From Anaerolineaceae bacterium (lineage in GTDB: Bacteria > Chloroflexota > Anaerolineae > Anaerolineales > Anaerolineaceae), in the NCBI GenBank assembly GCA_016927865.1, contig JAFGLU010000044.1, positions 1 through 41,309 of the forward strand: a DNA stretch of 41,309 nucleotides. The letters are read 5' to 3'. The first letter of the stretch is position 1. Each line of letters starts with the position of its first letter. Below, one piece after another: positions 1 to 40,658 of this stretch. Position numbers and translations under genes: made by a program. Under the pieces are notes generated by a model, which made no database searches, had not been told where the DNA came from, and saw only the letters and a program-made list of their open reading frames with translations.

Positions 1-3
1 AGG

Positions 4-88
4 CCCGAATTTGAGGTGTGTGTGGGGTGCGAAGCACCCCACACACACCTCAAATTCGGGAACTTTCCTCACCATCTGAGCAGTTACC
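4..88 (-). repeat. Palindrome-plus-tail repeat, copy 1
   Basis: A perfect inverted repeat with 27-bp arms (4-30 and 34-60) closes on a GAA loop, so the apex reads GCGAAGC. On the minus strand the hairpin is preceded by a conserved tail (61-88) containing GTAACTGCTCAG and GAGGAAAGTT. The tail and the AATTTGAGRTGTG part of the stem recur at 40452-40543, and related copies lie at 25853-25934 and 25952-26042. It could act as a bidirectional terminator, but it sits upstream of a gene rather than after one, and it has no T-run. A REP-like mobile repeat is the preferred reading. Confidence 0.8.
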
Positions 89-287
89 ATTTGAAAGCAT
101 TATAGCAGATGCTCGGTACCTACCACGCCAACTCCTAGAGAGCCCTCACCGAGATTAGGAGAAGCTCCTGTGGGGAGTTAGGATGCTCGAGTACAACCAT
201 CTTGGAGAAAATTGCTCAGAATTTCTTAAGCAGATCAACTATCAGTCCCCCTAGAATGCAATATATAATTAGTTAAGATGAACCGTT

Positions 288-333
288 CTTTAGGAATTAG
301 CGTGGTTCTGCCACGGCAACCTCCTAAAGGCCC
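288..333 (+). other. Short structured motif (copy B) just upstream of the kinase gene
   Basis: An 8-bp stem CTTTAGGA (288-295) / TCCTAAAG (322-329) encloses an inner hairpin CGTGG-TTCTG-CCACG (301-315). The CTGCCACGGCAAC core is shared with 41184-41220 and, more loosely, with 115-144. Its place about 50 bases before the kinase start suggests a leader element or a protein-binding site. No known riboswitch class is recognised. Confidence 0.4.
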
Positions 334-385
334 GGAATAACTGCTCTAGGCATATTGCTATCAACTGGACCGAAAAAGGATGCGC

Positions 386-2800
386 ATGAGCATAGGAGGG
401 TTTGCCAGGCAGAAAACCATAGGCTTGCTGGGCACTGGCCTTGCCACTTTTATGCAGAACCAGTTGTGGCAGGGGGCTATGAAAGCAGCCCAGGAAAATG
501 CAACACGCCTGGTCTATTATCCAACCATCAACCTCGGTTCCATTCCACCTTTTGACCCTCAATCTAAAGTATTGTTCGATTTGATTGACGCCCGGTATGT
601 AGATGGGCTGCTGGTCTGGTACGCCGGAATTGCGGAGGGTGCGGGCATTGACCGGGGTGCATCCATTTTTGAGCGATACAAGAATTTACCCATCGTGACC
701 GTTGGGGGAAGATTTAAGGAATACCCTGACCTGTCGATTGATAACTATCGAGGGGTGTACTCAACCGTTGAGCATCTCATTACGGTCCATCATTGTCGAA
801 ACATCGCCATTGTTCGCGGACCTGTCGGTCATCCCGACGCTGATGAACGTTATCGGGGTTACGTGGATGTACTGAGCGCTTATGACCTGCCCATCCACCC
901 AGAATATGAAGCGCACTCGTTGTTCGAACTGGCAACCGCCAGAGAAATGACCGATGCGCTGGTTGCTGAATGGTTGCAAAAACCGTCCCTAAAAATCGAC
1001 GCGATCGTCGCCGCGTCAGATTATATGGCGTTGGGCGTGATCAAAGCCCTTGAGGCGCGAGGGCTGCGCGTGCCTGAAGATATTGCCGTAGTGGGATTTG
1101 ATGGCGTGGATGACTCTCAGGCAAACATTCCAGCCGTCACAACGGTCTACCAGTCCTTTTATGAGTTAGGGCGGCAGGGGACGGAAATGCTCCTGGCTTT
1201 GATCAATGGACAGAGCTTACCTGTGCAATCGACCATGCCCGCCCCATTGGTTGTCCGAGAGTCGTGCGGCTGTCTTGCCAGATCCATTTCATTGTCAAAT
1301 ACTGTCCTGAGGGGTGACGTAGAGCCGGGTTTGAGTCCGCTGCCCATCCCCGAAATGGGCTCCCCAGCAGATTTGGTCACTGTTGCGCAAGACTTGAATA
1401 TACCGCTGGAGCAATTGGAGAACCTGGCGAGGCTTTTCCAGAGTGACCTTAAAACCACAAACACACCTCAATTTCTCTCTGCCCTGCGCCAATCTCTGGT
1501 GCAGGCGCAGAAAACACACTTCAACGCAATTGCATGGCAAAATGCAATTTCGGTGCTCCGGCAGCAGGAGCTGTTGACTTCCAACGGCGGTATTGGATGG
1601 CAGGGAGAAACTTTGTTTAACCAGGCGCGCGTGCTGATCACAGAGGTGCACCAGCGCGTTTATATTCGTGAGAAGATCGAGATCGAACAGCAAATTGAAA
1701 AAATTATGCGCACATCGGAGACCTTGATCACATCGTTTGGCGAGCAATTGTTCATCGATACTCTCTATAAACGGCTGCCAGAGCTTGGCTTCCCGAGTTT
1801 TTACCTTTTATTATATGAAGATCCCACCCAACCAGCCCTGTGGTCGCGCGTTCTTATTGCCAATGACAATGGTCAGCGCATAGAATTGCCGCCAGGTGAA
1901 CAGCGAGTTCCAACCGGCCAACTGATTCCCAAGCTTGTCCATTCTATACATCCTATCGCGCCCCTTGTGGTGGAACCACTCTACTTTCAGGGCGAACCTC
2001 TAGGACTTTTGGTTCTCGAGGTTGGCCCAATGGAAGGTTTGATCTACGAAAACTTGCGCGCGCAAATCAGCAGTGCGCTGCAAGGTTCGCGGCTCACCGA
2101 ACAGGTGCTCACCCGCACTCATCAATTGGAGGCGGCAAACAGCGAACTTGAGTCTTTTTCCTATTCTATTTCACATGATCTGCGCGCACCGCTGCGCGCA
2201 ATTGATTCCTTCTCGGGTTTGCTGATCGACGAGTATGCGGCGGATTTGTCAGAAGAAGCCCACCATTTTCTGAACCGAATCCAACATAATACCAGGCGGA
2301 TGGGTGATCTGATTAATGATTTATTGGACTTTTCCCGCATTGGGCGAAAAACATTGCAAGTTGAAGATGTTGATATGGATCAGCTTGTGCATGAAATTCT
2401 GGGTGACTTACGGGCCGATCATGCGGTGACCCAGGCGGAAATCATTGTCGAGCCGCTGCCACCGTGCAAGGCGGATCGATCCCTGATCAAACAGGTATGG
2501 ATTAATCTGATTCTGAATGCCATTAAGTATTCAAGTAAGCGCGAGAAGCCGCGCATCGAAATTGGCCATGTTGCCCGCCCTCATAGCAGCGCATATATGA
2601 TAAAAGATAATGGAGTGGGGTTTGATATGCGCTACGCGGATAAGCTGTTTGGCGTTTTTCAGCGATTGCATAAAGATGAAGAATATGAGGGGACCGGAAT
2701 TGGGCTTGCTATGGTGCGCCGGATCATAGGGCGGCATGGAGGATCTGTCTGGGTCGAGGCGGAATTGGAAAAGGGCGCTACCTTTTATTTTTCACTTTGA
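386..2800 (+). CDS. Cytoplasmic histidine kinase with LacI-type ligand-binding sensor
   Basis: This is a sensor histidine kinase of about 804 residues without signal peptide or membrane segments, so sensing is probably intracellular. Residues about 8-300 form a LacI/PBP1-like sugar-binding fold but lack the DNA-binding helix-turn-helix; typical phrases are VAASDYMALGVIKALEARG and VVGFDGVDDSQ. A less conserved linker is followed by a GAF-like region (about 440-570), a coiled coil, then HisKA with the phosphoacceptor His in SISHDLRAPLRAI (His597) and a HATPase_c domain with NLILNAIKYSS, DNGVGF and GTGIGLAMVRRI. The ATG at 386 is preferred over 380 because AAAAAGG lies at a workable distance from it. 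No response regulator is adjacent; the stand-alone receiver at 40659-41054 is a possible but unproven partner. The ligand is likely a sugar or related small molecule, by analogy only. Confidence 0.88.
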   Translation: MSIGGFARQKTIGLLGTGLATFMQNQLWQGAMKAAQENATRLVYYPTINLGSIPPFDPQSKVLFDLIDARYVDGLLVWYAGIAEGAGIDRGASIFERYKNLPIVTVGGRFKEYPDLSIDNYRGVYSTVEHLITVHHCRNIAIVRGPVGHPDADERYRGYVDVLSAYDLPIHPEYEAHSLFELATAREMTDALVAEWLQKPSLKIDAIVAASDYMALGVIKALEARGLRVPEDIAVVGFDGVDDSQANIPAVTTVYQSFYELGRQGTEMLLALINGQSLPVQSTMPAPLVVRESCGCLARSISLSNTVLRGDVEPGLSPLPIPEMGSPADLVTVAQDLNIPLEQLENLARLFQSDLKTTNTPQFLSALRQSLVQAQKTHFNAIAWQNAISVLRQQELLTSNGGIGWQGETLFNQARVLITEVHQRVYIREKIEIEQQIEKIMRTSETLITSFGEQLFIDTLYKRLPELGFPSFYLLLYEDPTQPALWSRVLIANDNGQRIELPPGEQRVPTGQLIPKLVHSIHPIAPLVVEPLYFQGEPLGLLVLEVGPMEGLIYENLRAQISSALQGSRLTEQVLTRTHQLEAANSELESFSYSISHDLRAPLRAIDSFSGLLIDEYAADLSEEAHHFLNRIQHNTRRMGDLINDLLDFSRIGRKTLQVEDVDMDQLVHEILGDLRADHAVTQAEIIVEPLPPCKADRSLIKQVWINLILNAIKYSSKREKPRIEIGHVARPHSSAYMIKDNGVGFDMRYADKLFGVFQRLHKDEEYEGTGIGLAMVRRIIGRHGGSVWVEAELEKGATFYFSL

Positions 2801-2830
2801 TCGCCAGGTAGATTGCCCAGAGATTTGTCA

Positions 2831-2875
2831 AAACAGGATGTTTTCGTGGGTCAAACCCACGAAAACATCCTGTTT
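2831..2875. terminator. Bidirectional hairpin between convergent genes
   Basis: Perfect 21-bp arms (2831-2851 and 2855-2875) close on a CAA loop. It lies between the stop of the kinase gene and the stop of the convergent HAAS/sensor gene, the expected place for a shared terminator. A T-run is lacking on both sides, so any termination would rely on the very stable stem. Confidence 0.7.
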
Positions 2876-2885
2876 CAACGTCATT

Positions 2886-3767
2886 TTATCTTACCAGCAA
2901 TTGTTTGGCGTAGCGTCCGTGGACAGCGCCGATGGCGCGCACCAGGTGCATGGAAAGAGTCAATATCGCCAACCCGCCAAACATGCACAGGACTAACAAC
3001 CAGGGGGGCAGCAGAATGCCGCCGTTTCCAAGGTAGATAATCGGAATCTTGGTGATCATTTGGAACACCGGAGCCACCAGCAGCGCCAGCCCAAGCGAGT
3101 TTAGGGTTACGGCCAGGATAAAATAAAAGGTGCCGATGGGAAGCTGTAAGAACATATACAGCATGGAAAGCCAGGTTTGTTGGTCGCCGAGCAAAGATTT
3201 GAAGCGCTGCATGAAGCCCAGACCCGGCTGTGAAAACAGCGGGCGACGAGGCATGCGTTCGCCCAGCAGCGCTTCTACCAGGCGGCCTTCCAGCAAGGCC
3301 ACACCCTTCACCGACAGTAAAAACACCAGGGCAATTGGGATGCCGATGATCAGGATCATCAGCCCCACCGATAAGCTCAGGCCGGTTACAACCCAGGTGA
3401 AATAAAGGATGCCGGTCACGAAAGCAATGAACATATACAGGAGCGAGCCCCAGGTGCGCGGGTCGGTATAAACCCCGAAGAGGCGCTTCCAAAAGGATTG
3501 CTCGGCTTTTTTCTGAACGGGCGGAGGTGAGAGACGTCGTTCAATGGTTTTGTAAGCCAAGGCGGTTTCTTCCGGTGTGCCGTATTCTTCGATGATGATT
3601 TGTAACGCCGCAGAGTCGCTGCTGAAGTTGGGGGCCTGGCGGGCAGCTTCTAGGGCCATGACCAGGTGCTCTCTAGCGTCTGCCAGAGCATCTTGGATCA
3701 GTGCGGCGTCGCTGCCTTGCATTTCCCGTTTTAATGCTTCAAGGTATTCTTCGATAGTTGTCATCAT
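2886..3767 (-). CDS. HAAS-domain membrane protein with two tandem sensor modules
   Basis: The N-terminus (about 1-75) resembles the HAAS/DUF1700 helical domain that accompanies PadR regulators (TIEEYLEALKREM, then EEYGTPEETA). It is followed by two copies of the membrane module found as the 'putative sensor' region of some actinobacterial and Chloroflexota kinases: the first begins at TDPRTWGSLLYMFIAF, the second at GDQQTWLSMLYMFLQL. Each has a helical pair with a GxLYF or GTFYF signature. Four to five membrane helices are expected. It starts one base after the PadR gene stops, so the two form one transcript and probably a regulatory pair. The ligand and output are unknown; no kinase or sigma-factor domain is attached. 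The 293-residue length fits the two-module architecture. Confidence 0.75.
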   Translation of the reverse strand: MMTTIEEYLEALKREMQGSDAALIQDALADAREHLVMALEAARQAPNFSSDSAALQIIIEEYGTPEETALAYKTIERRLSPPPVQKKAEQSFWKRLFGVYTDPRTWGSLLYMFIAFVTGILYFTWVVTGLSLSVGLMILIIGIPIALVFLLSVKGVALLEGRLVEALLGERMPRRPLFSQPGLGFMQRFKSLLGDQQTWLSMLYMFLQLPIGTFYFILAVTLNSLGLALLVAPVFQMITKIPIIYLGNGGILLPPWLLVLCMFGGLAILTLSMHLVRAIGAVHGRYAKQLLVR

Positions 3768-12099: not shown

Positions 12100-12135
12100 A
12101 AATTGTGAGCCCACCTGCGGGTGGGCTCACAATTT
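12100..12135 (+). terminator. Hairpin between binding-protein and permease genes
   Basis: Perfect 16-bp arms (12100-12115 and 12120-12135) with a TGCG loop, 32 bases after the binding-protein stop. Such hairpins often stabilise the upstream mRNA or partly terminate, giving more binding protein than permease. No long T-run follows. Confidence 0.7.
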
Positions 12136-17664: not shown

Positions 17665-17704
17665 TAACAGCAAATGCGGCGCAGATACGCCGCATTTGCT
17701 GTTA
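17665..17704. terminator. Bidirectional hairpin between importer operon and DUF456 gene
   Basis: Perfect 17-bp arms (17665-17681 and 17688-17704) with a six-base loop, lying between two convergent stop codons. Confidence 0.75.
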
Positions 17705-24297: not shown

Positions 24298-24374
24298 AAT
24301 ATTTGTAACAACTCAGATGGCAGAGAAAGTTCGAGTCTCTTCCACCTCTGGCTGAGTAATTACAAAATGGGGTT

Positions 24375-25418: not shown

Positions 25419-25790
25419 ATGAACATCTATGTTGGGAATCTGCCGTTCACTACCGGTGAAGAAGAGCTTCGCGAGACTTTCGGAGCTTACGGCGATGTCG
25501 AGTCTGTGTCTGTGATCAAAGATCAATTCACTGGTCAGTCACGCGGGTTCGGTTTCGTAGTCATGCCCAATGACGCGGAAGGTAATGCTGCTATCAATGC
25601 TTTGAACGGGAAAGAAATCAAAGGTCGCCCGCTGAAGGTCAACGAAGCTCGCCCTCGCGAAAGCGGTGGTGGTGGTCGCGGTCCTGGTGGTGGCATGGGC
25701 GGCGGCCAGGGCGGCTTCCGCCGTGGTCCTGGTGGCGGTGGTGGTGATCGCCGCGGTGGTTCCGGTGGCGATCGTCGCAACAACTGGTAA
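25419..25790 (+). CDS. Glycine-rich RRM RNA-binding protein
   Basis: 123 residues. One RNA-recognition motif (1-80) with RNP2 NIYVGNLPF and RNP1 SRGFGFVVM is followed by a glycine- and arginine-rich tail (about 85-123) with GGGRGPGGG repeats. The layout is that of cyanobacterial Rbp proteins and eukaryotic glycine-rich cold-inducible proteins, which bind single-stranded RNA. It is transcribed alone, between its promoter and a T-tailed hairpin. A role in RNA stability or cold adaptation is inferred from the family. Confidence 0.93.
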   Translation: MNIYVGNLPFTTGEEELRETFGAYGDVESVSVIKDQFTGQSRGFGFVVMPNDAEGNAAINALNGKEIKGRPLKVNEARPRESGGGGRGPGGGMGGGQGGFRRGPGGGGGDRRGGSGGDRRNNW

Positions 25791-25808: not shown

Positions 25809-25839
25809 AAAACAACCCTCTCGCCCAGAGGGTTGTTTT
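25809..25839 (+). terminator. Terminator of the RRM-protein gene
   Basis: 13-bp stem (25809-25821 / 25827-25839) with loop CGCCC, ending in TTTTCTTG; a conventional intrinsic terminator 19 bases past the stop. Confidence 0.88.
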
Positions 25840-25852
25840 CTTGTAACTGAGG

Positions 25853-25934
25853 GGTAACTATCAGGCCTTGGTAGAAAAGTTCCGAATTTGTGGTGTTGGG
25901 CGGGGCGAAGCCCCGCCCAACACCACAAATTCGG
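25853..25934 (+). repeat. Palindrome-plus-tail repeat, copy 2
   Basis: Tail 25853-25881 (GGTAACTATCAG ... GGTAGAAAAGTT) followed by a perfect 25-bp hairpin (25882-25906 / 25910-25934) with a GAA loop. The stem shares CCGAATTTG with copies 1 and 4 but its inner half differs, with every change matched on the other arm. Confidence 0.8.
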
Positions 25935-25951
25935 CCTCCTCCCCCAAAGGG

Positions 25952-26042
25952 CTGAGTAGTAGTAACACGCGGGTAGAGAACGTGCTTAAATTTCAAGTGC
26001 CTGTAGGGTACTATGCGCCCTACAGGCACTTGAAATTTAAGC
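25952..26042 (+). repeat. Palindrome-plus-tail repeat, copy 3
   Basis: Tail 25952-25983 (GCTGAGTAGTAGTAAC ... GGGTAGAGAACGT) followed by a perfect 25-bp hairpin (25984-26008 / 26018-26042) with a nine-base loop. The stem is the most diverged of the family (CTTAAATTTCAAGTG core) and lacks the GCGAAGC apex. It sits 17 bases after copy 2 in the same orientation, between convergent genes. Confidence 0.7.
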
Positions 26043-26100
26043 GATCTTCCCTCTCTGGCTAATTATTCAGGTGACTACTTCCGTAACCTGAGCCTGGGTT

Positions 26101-27810
26101 TCAACCTTTCCAATACTCACGTTCCTTTTGGAAGATCCTGCGCAGAATGGCCAGAGCTGTGGCGTAGGTGGAATCCATGCCGAAGTAGCTGAGCGTGCCT
26201 GCGCCCAGGTTCTTGCCCTTGCCCAGCGGGGTATCGGAGGCGTAGTGTAGGAAACCCAGATCGAAAGGCAGATGGTAAAGATGGACGATTTCGTCCAGGG
26301 GGTGGCGCTTGGGGCGAGACATTTCAAAGACGGCGGATAGATAAGGTCCGGCTTCCATCTCGATGTCGGCGTAGCCTTCGGTGTAGAACACGTCCATGAC
26401 GTGCACATTTTGCAGGAAGGTGCCCAACACGCTGAGCGCTTTCTGGTTGTCCAGCACGGTGCCATAGGTCAGGTAGGGGGTGACGTCGTTGGCGCTAAAG
26501 CAGTTGTCGAAGAGGTAAGTGTTGTGCGAGTGTTCGTCCTGCACAACGGTGGGAATCATCACGTCACCGCGAATGGCGTTGAGGGTGGCGGCTTTGCCCA
26601 TCACGTAGACCCCCAGGACGTTGAAGACCTGCTCGGCGACCTTGGAGAGAATATTGTAGGCAGCCAGGCCCAGCGGGTAGTCGATGTTGAGGATGAGGGC
26701 GTCGGTTTTCTTGAGAAAATCGAAACCGCCATCCAACAGGCGCGGGTCCAGGCGCTGGGAATTGAGGCGCTCCAGGTCAATCACCTGGGCTTCCACGTCA
26801 AAGGCGTGCTCGCTGGGCACGCGGACAATACCGGCTTCTTCTTCGGCGATGCGCTGTGCCTGGATGAGGGCGTGGCCGGCAGGTGTTTGCTGGTATTTCT
26901 TTAGGACGTAATACAGGAAGTTCTCTTTGCTGGAAGGCACCTGTCCGCTCTGGATGTGTGCCCATTCGGTCTGAAGTTCGCTGCCGCCTTCGCGCTGAAC
27001 GTAATCGATGATTTCATCAGCGTGGCGCAGAGCAAAGCCGGTGAGCAGGTTGGGTAGAACGTGGGTGTTGCTGGAGACAAAATATACCGGGCGCGAGCGC
27101 AGTGCGGGAGCTTGCCCGGCGACTGGCTCCCACCAGGCATGGGTGGCGCGTTGATATGAGCTGAGCGAACCGGCCAGCAGGCGCACGCCCAAGGAAAAGC
27201 GCCGTGAGCGGATGAGCTCGAGGTTGGCAGCGAAGGCATCGCCCCACACCGTGTGTAAACGCTCTAAATCTTCGATGGGCAGTTGGAGGGTAGCAGCCAG
27301 GCTTGCAAAAGCTTGCGGGTCGGCGGTGGCAGAGGCGAGCGGGATTTCTGCGGGCCAGCTGGCGTGGAGCAGATAGTGCATCTTGTTCCATTCCATCTGG
27401 TAGGCGGTGAGGGTGGGGATGATGTCTTCGATGTCGGATCGTGAGGCAATGTAGCAGGCCAGAATGGTTTGACCGTCAAAGAAGCAGCGGCGGCGGCGGG
27501 CGCGGGCCGGGGCGGGTTGCCAGGATTCTACTTGCGCATAGCCGTGATGAACGAAGACTTCGTCGCTTTGTCCGAGCACCACCGATCGCACCTGGGGCAT
27601 GCAATCGGGCAGGCGCAACAGGCTGTAGATGAAGGCTGAGATATCGGGTTCGCTCTGGCGGGCATTGGGATGCAGCAACGAGTTCATCCCGGCGTGGATT
27701 TCTTCGAGGGTGCGGATTTGCACCTCGGTGGAAGAGCGCAGCAGCGAGTAGATGGTGCTGCGATACAGGCGAATTTCTTCGGACGTGGCACTGGGAACGG
27801 TTCTTTGCAT
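26101..27810 (-). CDS. Uncharacterised 569-residue protein, possible nucleoside-phosphorylase-like C-terminus
   Basis: No signal peptide or membrane helix. The N-terminal two thirds are alpha-rich and not recognised. From about residue 380 the order of motifs resembles the nucleoside phosphorylase/nucleosidase fold: ALILNIDYPLG, VYVMGKAATLNAIRGDVMIPTVVQDEHS, a long central loop, and YTEGYADIEMEAGPYLSA, which recalls the base-binding 'MEs/MExG' segment, then FGMDSTYATALAI in the place of the catalytic aspartate. This is inference from pattern only; the family may correspond to a domain of unknown function shared by Bacteroidota and Chloroflexota. It is transcribed alone; TACAAT lies six bases before the ATG, suggesting a leaderless message. 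Confidence 0.6.
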   Translation of the reverse strand: MQRTVPSATSEEIRLYRSTIYSLLRSSTEVQIRTLEEIHAGMNSLLHPNARQSEPDISAFIYSLLRLPDCMPQVRSVVLGQSDEVFVHHGYAQVESWQPAPARARRRRCFFDGQTILACYIASRSDIEDIIPTLTAYQMEWNKMHYLLHASWPAEIPLASATADPQAFASLAATLQLPIEDLERLHTVWGDAFAANLELIRSRRFSLGVRLLAGSLSSYQRATHAWWEPVAGQAPALRSRPVYFVSSNTHVLPNLLTGFALRHADEIIDYVQREGGSELQTEWAHIQSGQVPSSKENFLYYVLKKYQQTPAGHALIQAQRIAEEEAGIVRVPSEHAFDVEAQVIDLERLNSQRLDPRLLDGGFDFLKKTDALILNIDYPLGLAAYNILSKVAEQVFNVLGVYVMGKAATLNAIRGDVMIPTVVQDEHSHNTYLFDNCFSANDVTPYLTYGTVLDNQKALSVLGTFLQNVHVMDVFYTEGYADIEMEAGPYLSAVFEMSRPKRHPLDEIVHLYHLPFDLGFLHYASDTPLGKGKNLGAGTLSYFGMDSTYATALAILRRIFQKEREYWKG

Positions 27811-27843: not shown

Positions 27844-27897
27844 ACCCAAAAACAGATGATGGCCGCGGAAACCCGCGGCCATCATCTGTTTTTGGGT
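27844..27897 (-). terminator. Long hairpin after the ABC exporter operon
   Basis: Perfect 25-bp arms (27844-27868 / 27873-27897) with loop AAAC, 16 bases past the permease stop on the minus strand. It lies between that stop and the upstream region of the next minus-strand gene and so should end the exporter transcript. Confidence 0.75.
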
Positions 27898-40027: not shown

Positions 40028-40076
40028 AGATCATAAAACCAGGTCAACGCGCAGCGTTGACCTGGTTTTATGATCT
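40028..40076. terminator. Bidirectional hairpin between antiporter and zinc-ribbon genes
   Basis: Perfect 23-bp arms (40028-40050 / 40054-40076) with a GCA loop between two convergent stop codons. TTTTTGCG follows on the plus strand. Confidence 0.8.
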
Positions 40077-40451: not shown

Positions 40452-40543
40452 CTGAGTAATTGCTCAGCGGGTGAGGAAAGTTCCCGAATTTGAGATGTGT
40501 GTGGGGGGTGCGAAGCACCCCCCACACACATCTCAAATTCGGG
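40452..40543 (+). repeat. Palindrome-plus-tail repeat, copy 4
   Basis: Tail 40452-40482 (CTGAGTAATTGCTCAG then GAGGAAAGTT) followed by a perfect 29-bp hairpin (40483-40511 / 40515-40543) with loop GAA and apex GCGAAGC. Compared with copy 1 the stem has a substitution and two extra base pairs, all matched on the opposite arm. It lies between two minus-strand genes. Confidence 0.8.
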
Positions 40544-40658
40544 TCTCTTGGAAATTGGCGTGGTGAGGATCGGCATTTTGCCGTTAAACGATCCCTTCCC
40601 CGTCTGGCTCGGGGAAGGGAAAGGGAGGAAAACAGATACCGGTAAAGAGGAGGGAGGA

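Follow-up and report, generated by a model that had tools for sequence, protein, structure and literature searches.

A short non-autonomous transposable element with IS66/ISBst12-type ends and a nearly perfect inner hairpin in an Anaerolineaceae genome

The window analysed here, positions 1 to 41,309 of contig JAFGLU010000044.1 of an Anaerolineaceae bacterium (GCA_016927865.1), contains hairpins whose long arms pair perfectly and differ in sequence from one copy to the next. This raises the question of what kind of element carries them and what keeps the arms matched. The initial annotation described four such hairpins, three of them with a GCGAAGC apex, and these observations were confirmed: the hairpins lie at 4-60, 25882-25934, 25984-26042 and 40483-40543, with arms of 27, 25, 25 and 29 bp, all perfect. 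The shared tail that it described beside each hairpin is also real, but represents only the left half of an element whose right half had been missed. The intact repeat (~112 bp) consists of a left end, an imperfect arm, the hairpin and a right end. Reading of matched loci gave GTAACTGCTCAG-AGGGTGGGGAAAGTT for the left half and CCTCTTCCACCTCTGG-CTGAGTAGTTAC for the half 3′ of the hairpin (CCTCTTCCACCTCTGGCTGAGTAGTTAC in intact copies), with GTAACTGCTCAG and GTAACTACTCAG as inverted ends. Hairpin arms are 22–29 bp in most copies and mostly perfect, around a loop of mostly 3 nt, and when folded as single-stranded DNA the whole element forms one long hairpin (z −11.5 to −14.2, four copies). Short, noncoding and bounded by terminal inverted repeats, the family has the organisation of a MITE.

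All four copies noted earlier were recovered, but a fifth, lacking the hairpin, had escaped notice, so that the window carries two clear copies (A and D), one copy of a sister subfamily (B), one very diverged hairpin (C) and one hairpin-less copy (E):

1..87, minus strand: copy A, MITE with left end and hairpin (4-60, 27 bp arms), 92.5-bit profile match; the right end is absent because the contig starts there.
122..143, minus strand: ACCACGCCAACTCC motif near copy A, resembling the other end of a second MITE family (resemblance only).
24305..24363, plus strand: copy E, 59 bp, hairpin-less, with both ends; target duplication not clear.
25854..25966, minus strand relative to locus L320: copy B, sister-subfamily MITE with hairpin (25882-25934, 25 bp arms, loop GAA).
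25962..26070, plus strand: copy C, very diverged, adjoining B, with hairpin (25984-26042) and uncertain ends; 38.6 bits.
40456..40548, plus strand: copy D, left end and hairpin (40483-40543, 29 bp arms), right end lost; 69.8 bits.
40548..40567, plus strand: stretch beside D containing GGAAATTGGCGTGG, resembling an end of the second MITE family (resemblance only).

Copy B had been given the same type of tail as the others. Its hairpin is real, but it belongs to the sister subfamily (ends as read in L320: GTTACTACTCAG / GTAACTACTCAG) and lies in the opposite orientation, the supposed tail being its right arm; its target duplication is no longer present. Copy C, also counted as a family member, has 25 bp arms that are still perfect around a 9-nt loop, but is so diverged that only about 16 of 24 stem letters are as in the family (hand count). 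The neighbours of B and C encode a small RRM-domain RNA-binding protein with a glycine-rich tail (25419-25790) and a DUF6909 protein (26101-27810). Other perfect hairpins of 13–25 bp, outside the family, are found at 2831-2875, 12100-12135, 17665-17704, 25809-25839, 27844-27897 and 40028-40076; two of the three non-family hairpins of at least 18 bp in the window are flanked by convergent genes, as a long bidirectional terminator would be.

Further copies elsewhere in the genome, with tails that align, had been set beforehand as the test of whether this is a family at all, and the repeats pass it. In the window's genome (G000; 3.97 Mb, 147 contigs, 84.5% complete) the tail pattern of the initial annotation matched 46 times, against 9 for the reversed pattern, and the right end (19 letters, ≤3 mismatches) 138 times against once. 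A sequence profile on 148 loci plus the window yielded 133 copies or fragments, no two of which share flanks; 117 have stems of at least 15 bp, each distinct, and the 16 with shorter stems were set aside. Long stems (at least 18 bp, with a few mismatches tolerated) number 10.8 per 100 kb in a 400-kb sample of this genome drawn without regard to hits, compared with 1.0 in G004 and 5.0 in G001 (both of the same genus), 11.9 in G043 and 0.5 in E. coli K-12 (200 kb), and given this density against the 0.5–11.9 of the compared genomes the hairpins are not due to chance. None of 41 such hairpins in 441 kb (the 400-kb sample plus the window) lies inside a predicted gene (40 intergenic, one at a contig edge), on a home-made gene prediction whose genes cover 87% of that sequence.

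Flanks of the element match at exactly 8 bp, with 88% identity; exchanging flanks among copies gives 29% (32 of the 33 full-length copies could be used). In the larger set both ends could be aligned and flanks used in 88 of the 117 copies; at least five of the eight duplication letters are equal in 71 of these, and 17 have no recognisable duplication. At the B/C site the distance between aligned flanking stretches is 153 bp in G001 against 371 bp in the window, and 155 bp in G004 against 422 bp; B and C together measure 217 bp; in G003 the gap is intermediate (251 vs 357 bp in the window) and the long hairpin is absent. An empty site is thus seen at one place, B/C being absent from G001 and G004, and no clean copy-by-copy empty site was found. 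Ends, duplication and multi-copy spread show that the repeats are a MITE, a transposable element about 112 bp long that is non-autonomous, and two inverted ends with exact 8-bp target duplications speak against the REP/RAYT type. The hairpin is often deleted instead of decaying; it is missing wholly or partly in at least nine copies with 7–8/8 duplications. The same 47-bp hairpin-less form is found in L048 and L051 at different sites, one letter apart, which suggests that this form may still be able to move.

The GTAAC.. ends and the 8-bp duplication are as in the ISBst12 group. ISDge4 of Deinococcus geothermalis, an ISBst12-group element reported to be actively moving, has ends GTGACTACTCAGCA / GTAACTGCTCAGCA and an 8-bp repeat (PMC12898284, from the excerpted text); the MITE shares with it 12/12 and 11/12 end letters and the 8-bp target duplication, and differs in having no transposase gene, a length of about 112 bp and a long perfect inner hairpin. 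Within the same order, L225 is a complete IS66 element (782-2398, 1617 bp, ends GTAACCGTTCAG, 8-bp duplication CTCAATTT) whose ends the MITE ends also resemble; it encodes a 491-aa protein identified as an IS66 transposase (NF033517, 8.5e-90). In Thiomicrorhabdus (L226, L242), Thiomargarita (L232) and an Armatimonadetes genome (L224), GTAACTAYTCAG-like ends have IS66-type genes close by. The IS66 transposase profile PF03050 gave no match in the window's 84.5% complete assembly, nor in G005 (same order, as are G041 and G056) or G043, both of which carry members; because the assembly contains no match to a cognate transposase, only the ends are assigned to the IS66/ISBst12 group. Among the matches listed for the window's own genome, inspection by eye found no correctly oriented exact end pair 0.7–3 kb apart that could represent an autonomous element, and no ends were found with the criteria applied for three further IS66 genes of the order (L331-L333). 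A 1008-bp end pair with 8-bp duplications in L133 was rejected as an autonomous element, as none of its reading frames had the look of a transposase. MITEAba12 is likewise non-autonomous, 111–114 bp and mostly of one length, with inverted ends and target duplications, but has other ends and a 9-bp duplication, and a perfect inner hairpin is not mentioned in the excerpted account (PMC6382973).

End pairs 97–127 bp apart gave at least 117 matching stretches in a collection of one genome per species. Among the matches listed, 7–8/8 duplications were seen in Chloroflexi/Anaerolineae, Mariprofundales, several Gammaproteobacteria, Elusimicrobia, Armatimonadetes, Leptospiraceae and Syntrophomonadaceae, and none in Desulfobulbaceae, Desulfobacterales, an archaeon and others, whose end pairs may be chance matches or old. 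Perfect stems of at least 20 bp numbered 26 in 36 Chloroflexota loci and one in 44 others (80 of the at least 117 matches); several Chloroflexota end pairs among the matches listed also have no hairpin. Elements of ~121 bp with the same GTAACTRCTCAG ends and a different, imperfect interior were noted in L110, L113, L119, L124, L133 and other Mariprofundales/Gammaproteobacteria, some with an 8-bp duplication and others with none; L122, L152, L183 and L212 are also GTAACTRCTCAG-ended, and their interior appears to resemble a TCATTGCGAGGAG...GAAGCAATC repeat known from other bacteria.

Searches of the open-access PMC literature found no account of this family or of any ISBst12-type MITE, in keeping with the proposal of the initial annotation that this is an undescribed repeat family with covarying stems. 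The covariation itself is pronounced: relative to the consensus, 415 stem cells are changed alike in both arms and 39 are mismatched, and 92 of 117 stems have no mismatch. Transversions, which cannot pass via a G-U pair, make up 190 of the 415 coupled cells; these counts are of sequences, not events, and just 17 coupled changes are confined to a single copy. Mismatches include 11 G-U and 14 A-C, and without an excess of G-U over A-C the covariation does not point to a structured RNA. Rfam at gathering score gave only a tRNA in the window and nothing in six loci, and sub-threshold matches, mostly to microRNA precursors, were dismissed as having the look of generic long hairpins.

Each copy carries its own clock, since its two 8-bp duplications were one and the same sequence when the element inserted and can be set beside the stem pairs of the same copy. 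In 71 copies the duplications differ at 75/568 sites (13%) and the stem pairs at 30/1836 (1.6%), a divergence ratio of 7.9 on the first seven positions (bootstrap 4.8–14.3). Arm mismatch does not rise with age (1.7, 1.3 and 2.0% at 0, 1 and 2–3 duplication mismatches) and is 0.5% in the 17 copies with no recognisable duplication. Across the duplication-age classes the increase is from.144 to.187 for tail divergence (Spearman p = 0.06). For coupled stem change it is from.106 to.142 (p = 0.064), and from.059 to.103 (p = 0.015) when the most variable columns are left out; these age trends are weak. Stems seem to evolve roughly as fast as the sequence around them, mostly in pairs. The 3-nt apex reads GAA in 50 copies and TTC in 41, and agrees between nearest relatives by tail in 20 of 47 cases (chance 51%), i.e. 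its orientation is random even among the closest relatives.

The clock was replicated in the CANJQH genome (8/200 duplication sites vs 4/628 stem pairs, 25 copies, p = 0.002) but not in G056 (5/224 vs 22/762, 28 young copies, p = 0.82), where the failure is probably due in part to the spread of copies with an imperfect inner stem (L159, L188, L202); usable copies numbered five in G043, two in G005 and two in G041. No orthologous copies were found, the one homologous flank pair between G043 and G056 (16 and 22 loci) containing a different element. Loss of the hairpin nuclease SbcCD was considered as a reason for the persistence of hairpins and rejected, since this genome has an SbcD match, as do 57 of the 61 genomes searched.

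On balance, we regard it as probable that a MITE with ISBst12-type ends, moved in trans, has its arms kept perfect by template-switch copying at replication forks. Mobilisation would most likely be by a presumed IS66-family transposase of the ISBst12 group, and insertion would create the 8-bp target duplication. Ends and duplications would then decay, with little divergence between the hairpin arms: the hairpin may fold at a replication fork, leading the new strand to copy the other arm, a form of template switching suggested by the mutation pattern. By this process a mutation in one arm would be removed or carried over to its partner, and the 3-nt apex inverted at random. Template switching predicts few mismatches at any age, near-neutral coupled change, no wobble bias and a randomised apex, as seen, and arm-to-arm copying at forks appears to fit the pattern better than RNA selection does; coupled change at a fixed insertion is inferred, as no pair of orthologous copies was found. 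Precedents come from the excerpted texts of two reports. In E. coli, template switching turns imperfect inverted repeats into perfect ones, in laboratory lacZ reporters (PMC7202029). Inverted repeats in Nematomorpha mitochondrial genes are, like those here, nearly always perfect, for which repeat conversion or template switching was proposed, but they lie in coding mitochondrial DNA and are not transposable, and apex inversion or a duplication clock is not mentioned (PMC6649704). The excerpted account of hairpin elements in sponge mitochondria makes no statement on compensatory change (PMC2800124).

Several other explanations of the hairpins were weighed. Movement as REP/REPIN-like repeats by a Y1 (RAYT) transposase, the kinship suggested initially, would suit intergenic hairpins, and the genome has three Y1_Tnp matches, one of them near an unrelated 17-bp perfect hairpin (L447, 2050-2089) that is perhaps a REP of its own. 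To our knowledge, REP/REPIN elements have neither target duplications nor DDE-type inverted ends. The present family, with 8-bp duplications and two inverted, IS66/ISBst12-like ends, contradicts this reading, and no family profile match lies within ~1.5 kb either side of the three Y1 matches, leaving it scarcely credible; what remains is a likeness to REP/REPIN as short intergenic palindromes in many copies, which the excerpted literature links to a Y1 transposase (PMC3116915, PMC3733652). Equally hard to believe is that the four hairpins are unrelated transcription terminators: perfect hairpins of that kind do exist in the window (2831-2875, 25809-25839, 40028-40076), but the ends common to the copies, their duplications and a copy number above 100 contradict such an origin. 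Perfect arms might also be an assembly artefact (bubble removal between arms), as the contig starts inside a copy and the draft genome is in 147 contigs. This is very improbable, given that contig pairs C50/C51 and C65/C42, ending in copies, share exactly 87 nt, suggesting a final word size near 87 that exceeds the 53–61-nt hairpins of the window, and that mismatches do occur in 25 of 117 stems; long hairpins in genomes of one or two contigs (G047, G033, G021) and in parts of two Chloroflexota plasmids were too few to serve as a control.

Two further explanations accept the same MITE and differ in how its arms are kept alike. Selection for a function of the hairpin (RNA stabiliser, terminator or protein-binding cruciform), acting through compensatory mutations, would be consistent with paired stems in old copies, with similar stems in MITEs with unrelated ends, expected if sequence matters, and with the GCGAAGC apex, d(GCGAAGC) being a very stable mini-hairpin. 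Selection on paired RNA, however, predicts slow change and wobble bias, while here coupled change roughly keeps pace with change in the tails, transversions account for nearly half of the coupled cells and G-U is not in excess among the mismatches. Placement is also unlike that of terminators (10 tandem, 10 divergent and 3 convergent in a hand tally of the 23 hairpins with a 3-nt loop in the 400-kb sample), and in at least nine copies with well-preserved duplications the hairpin is wholly or partly gone. This explanation is accordingly judged unlikely; as the tests of RNA selection ignored copy orientation relative to transcription, a strand-specific role of RNA may exist. Arms made identical only at transposition, by copying via a hairpin intermediate, with most copies young, would agree with G056, where copies are young (duplication divergence 2.2%) and stem mismatches reach 2.9%, but in the window's genome stem mismatch shows no rise with duplication divergence and is lowest, at 0.5%, in the 17 copies that have no recognisable duplication, which makes this distinctly doubtful.

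The stem itself recurs outside the family. A second MITE family in the same genome (ends GGGAATTGSCGTGGT, 8-bp duplication by eye in L382; loci L382 18926, L385 5389, L395 17285 and L024 1901) has a similar stem, CCGCATTTTGGGGTGTGAGAGCGGC, with a similarity score reached by 3 of 5000 half-preserving shuffles. Element types with other ends in G043 also have similar stems (0–3/5000); several of these were first found by a stem-favouring model, and examples recur in a 387-kb sample chosen otherwise. Stems from CANJQH, Brevefilum and G041 show little or no resemblance (648, 1352 and 97 of 5000, respectively), and four terminator-like stems in the same test gave 74 to 3590. Hairpin MITEs with ends like GGACTTACGCA were noted at loci L355, L358, L360, L403 9857 and L419 8484 of G043, whose genome belongs to another family of the same order. 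Resemblance across unrelated MITEs hints that the stem sequence itself may matter, and similarity among MITE families may reflect common origin, exchange or convergence. Only tentatively, and with odds against it, the hairpin can be viewed as a module of its own (roughly CCGAAWWTGRGGTGTGTGGGGTGC-GAA), passed between element families in several genera of the order and kept perfect by arm copying, in which case the MITEs with unrelated ends that carry it were presumably moved by different transposases. If true, this would amount to genome-wide concerted evolution inside 57-bp palindromes.

A MITE with IS66/ISBst12-type ends is a known kind of element, of which one with a self-matching hairpin and a built-in clock is a notable variant. 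In every copy a pair of duplications that started out identical stands beside a palindrome expected to diverge equally, and the roughly eight-fold difference between them would allow palindrome correction, of which earlier examples come from laboratory reporters and animal mitochondria, to be measured in a natural bacterial genome. The family also carries a warning, as compensatory changes in hairpins are usually read as RNA structure, and copying between DNA arms explains those found here at least as well.
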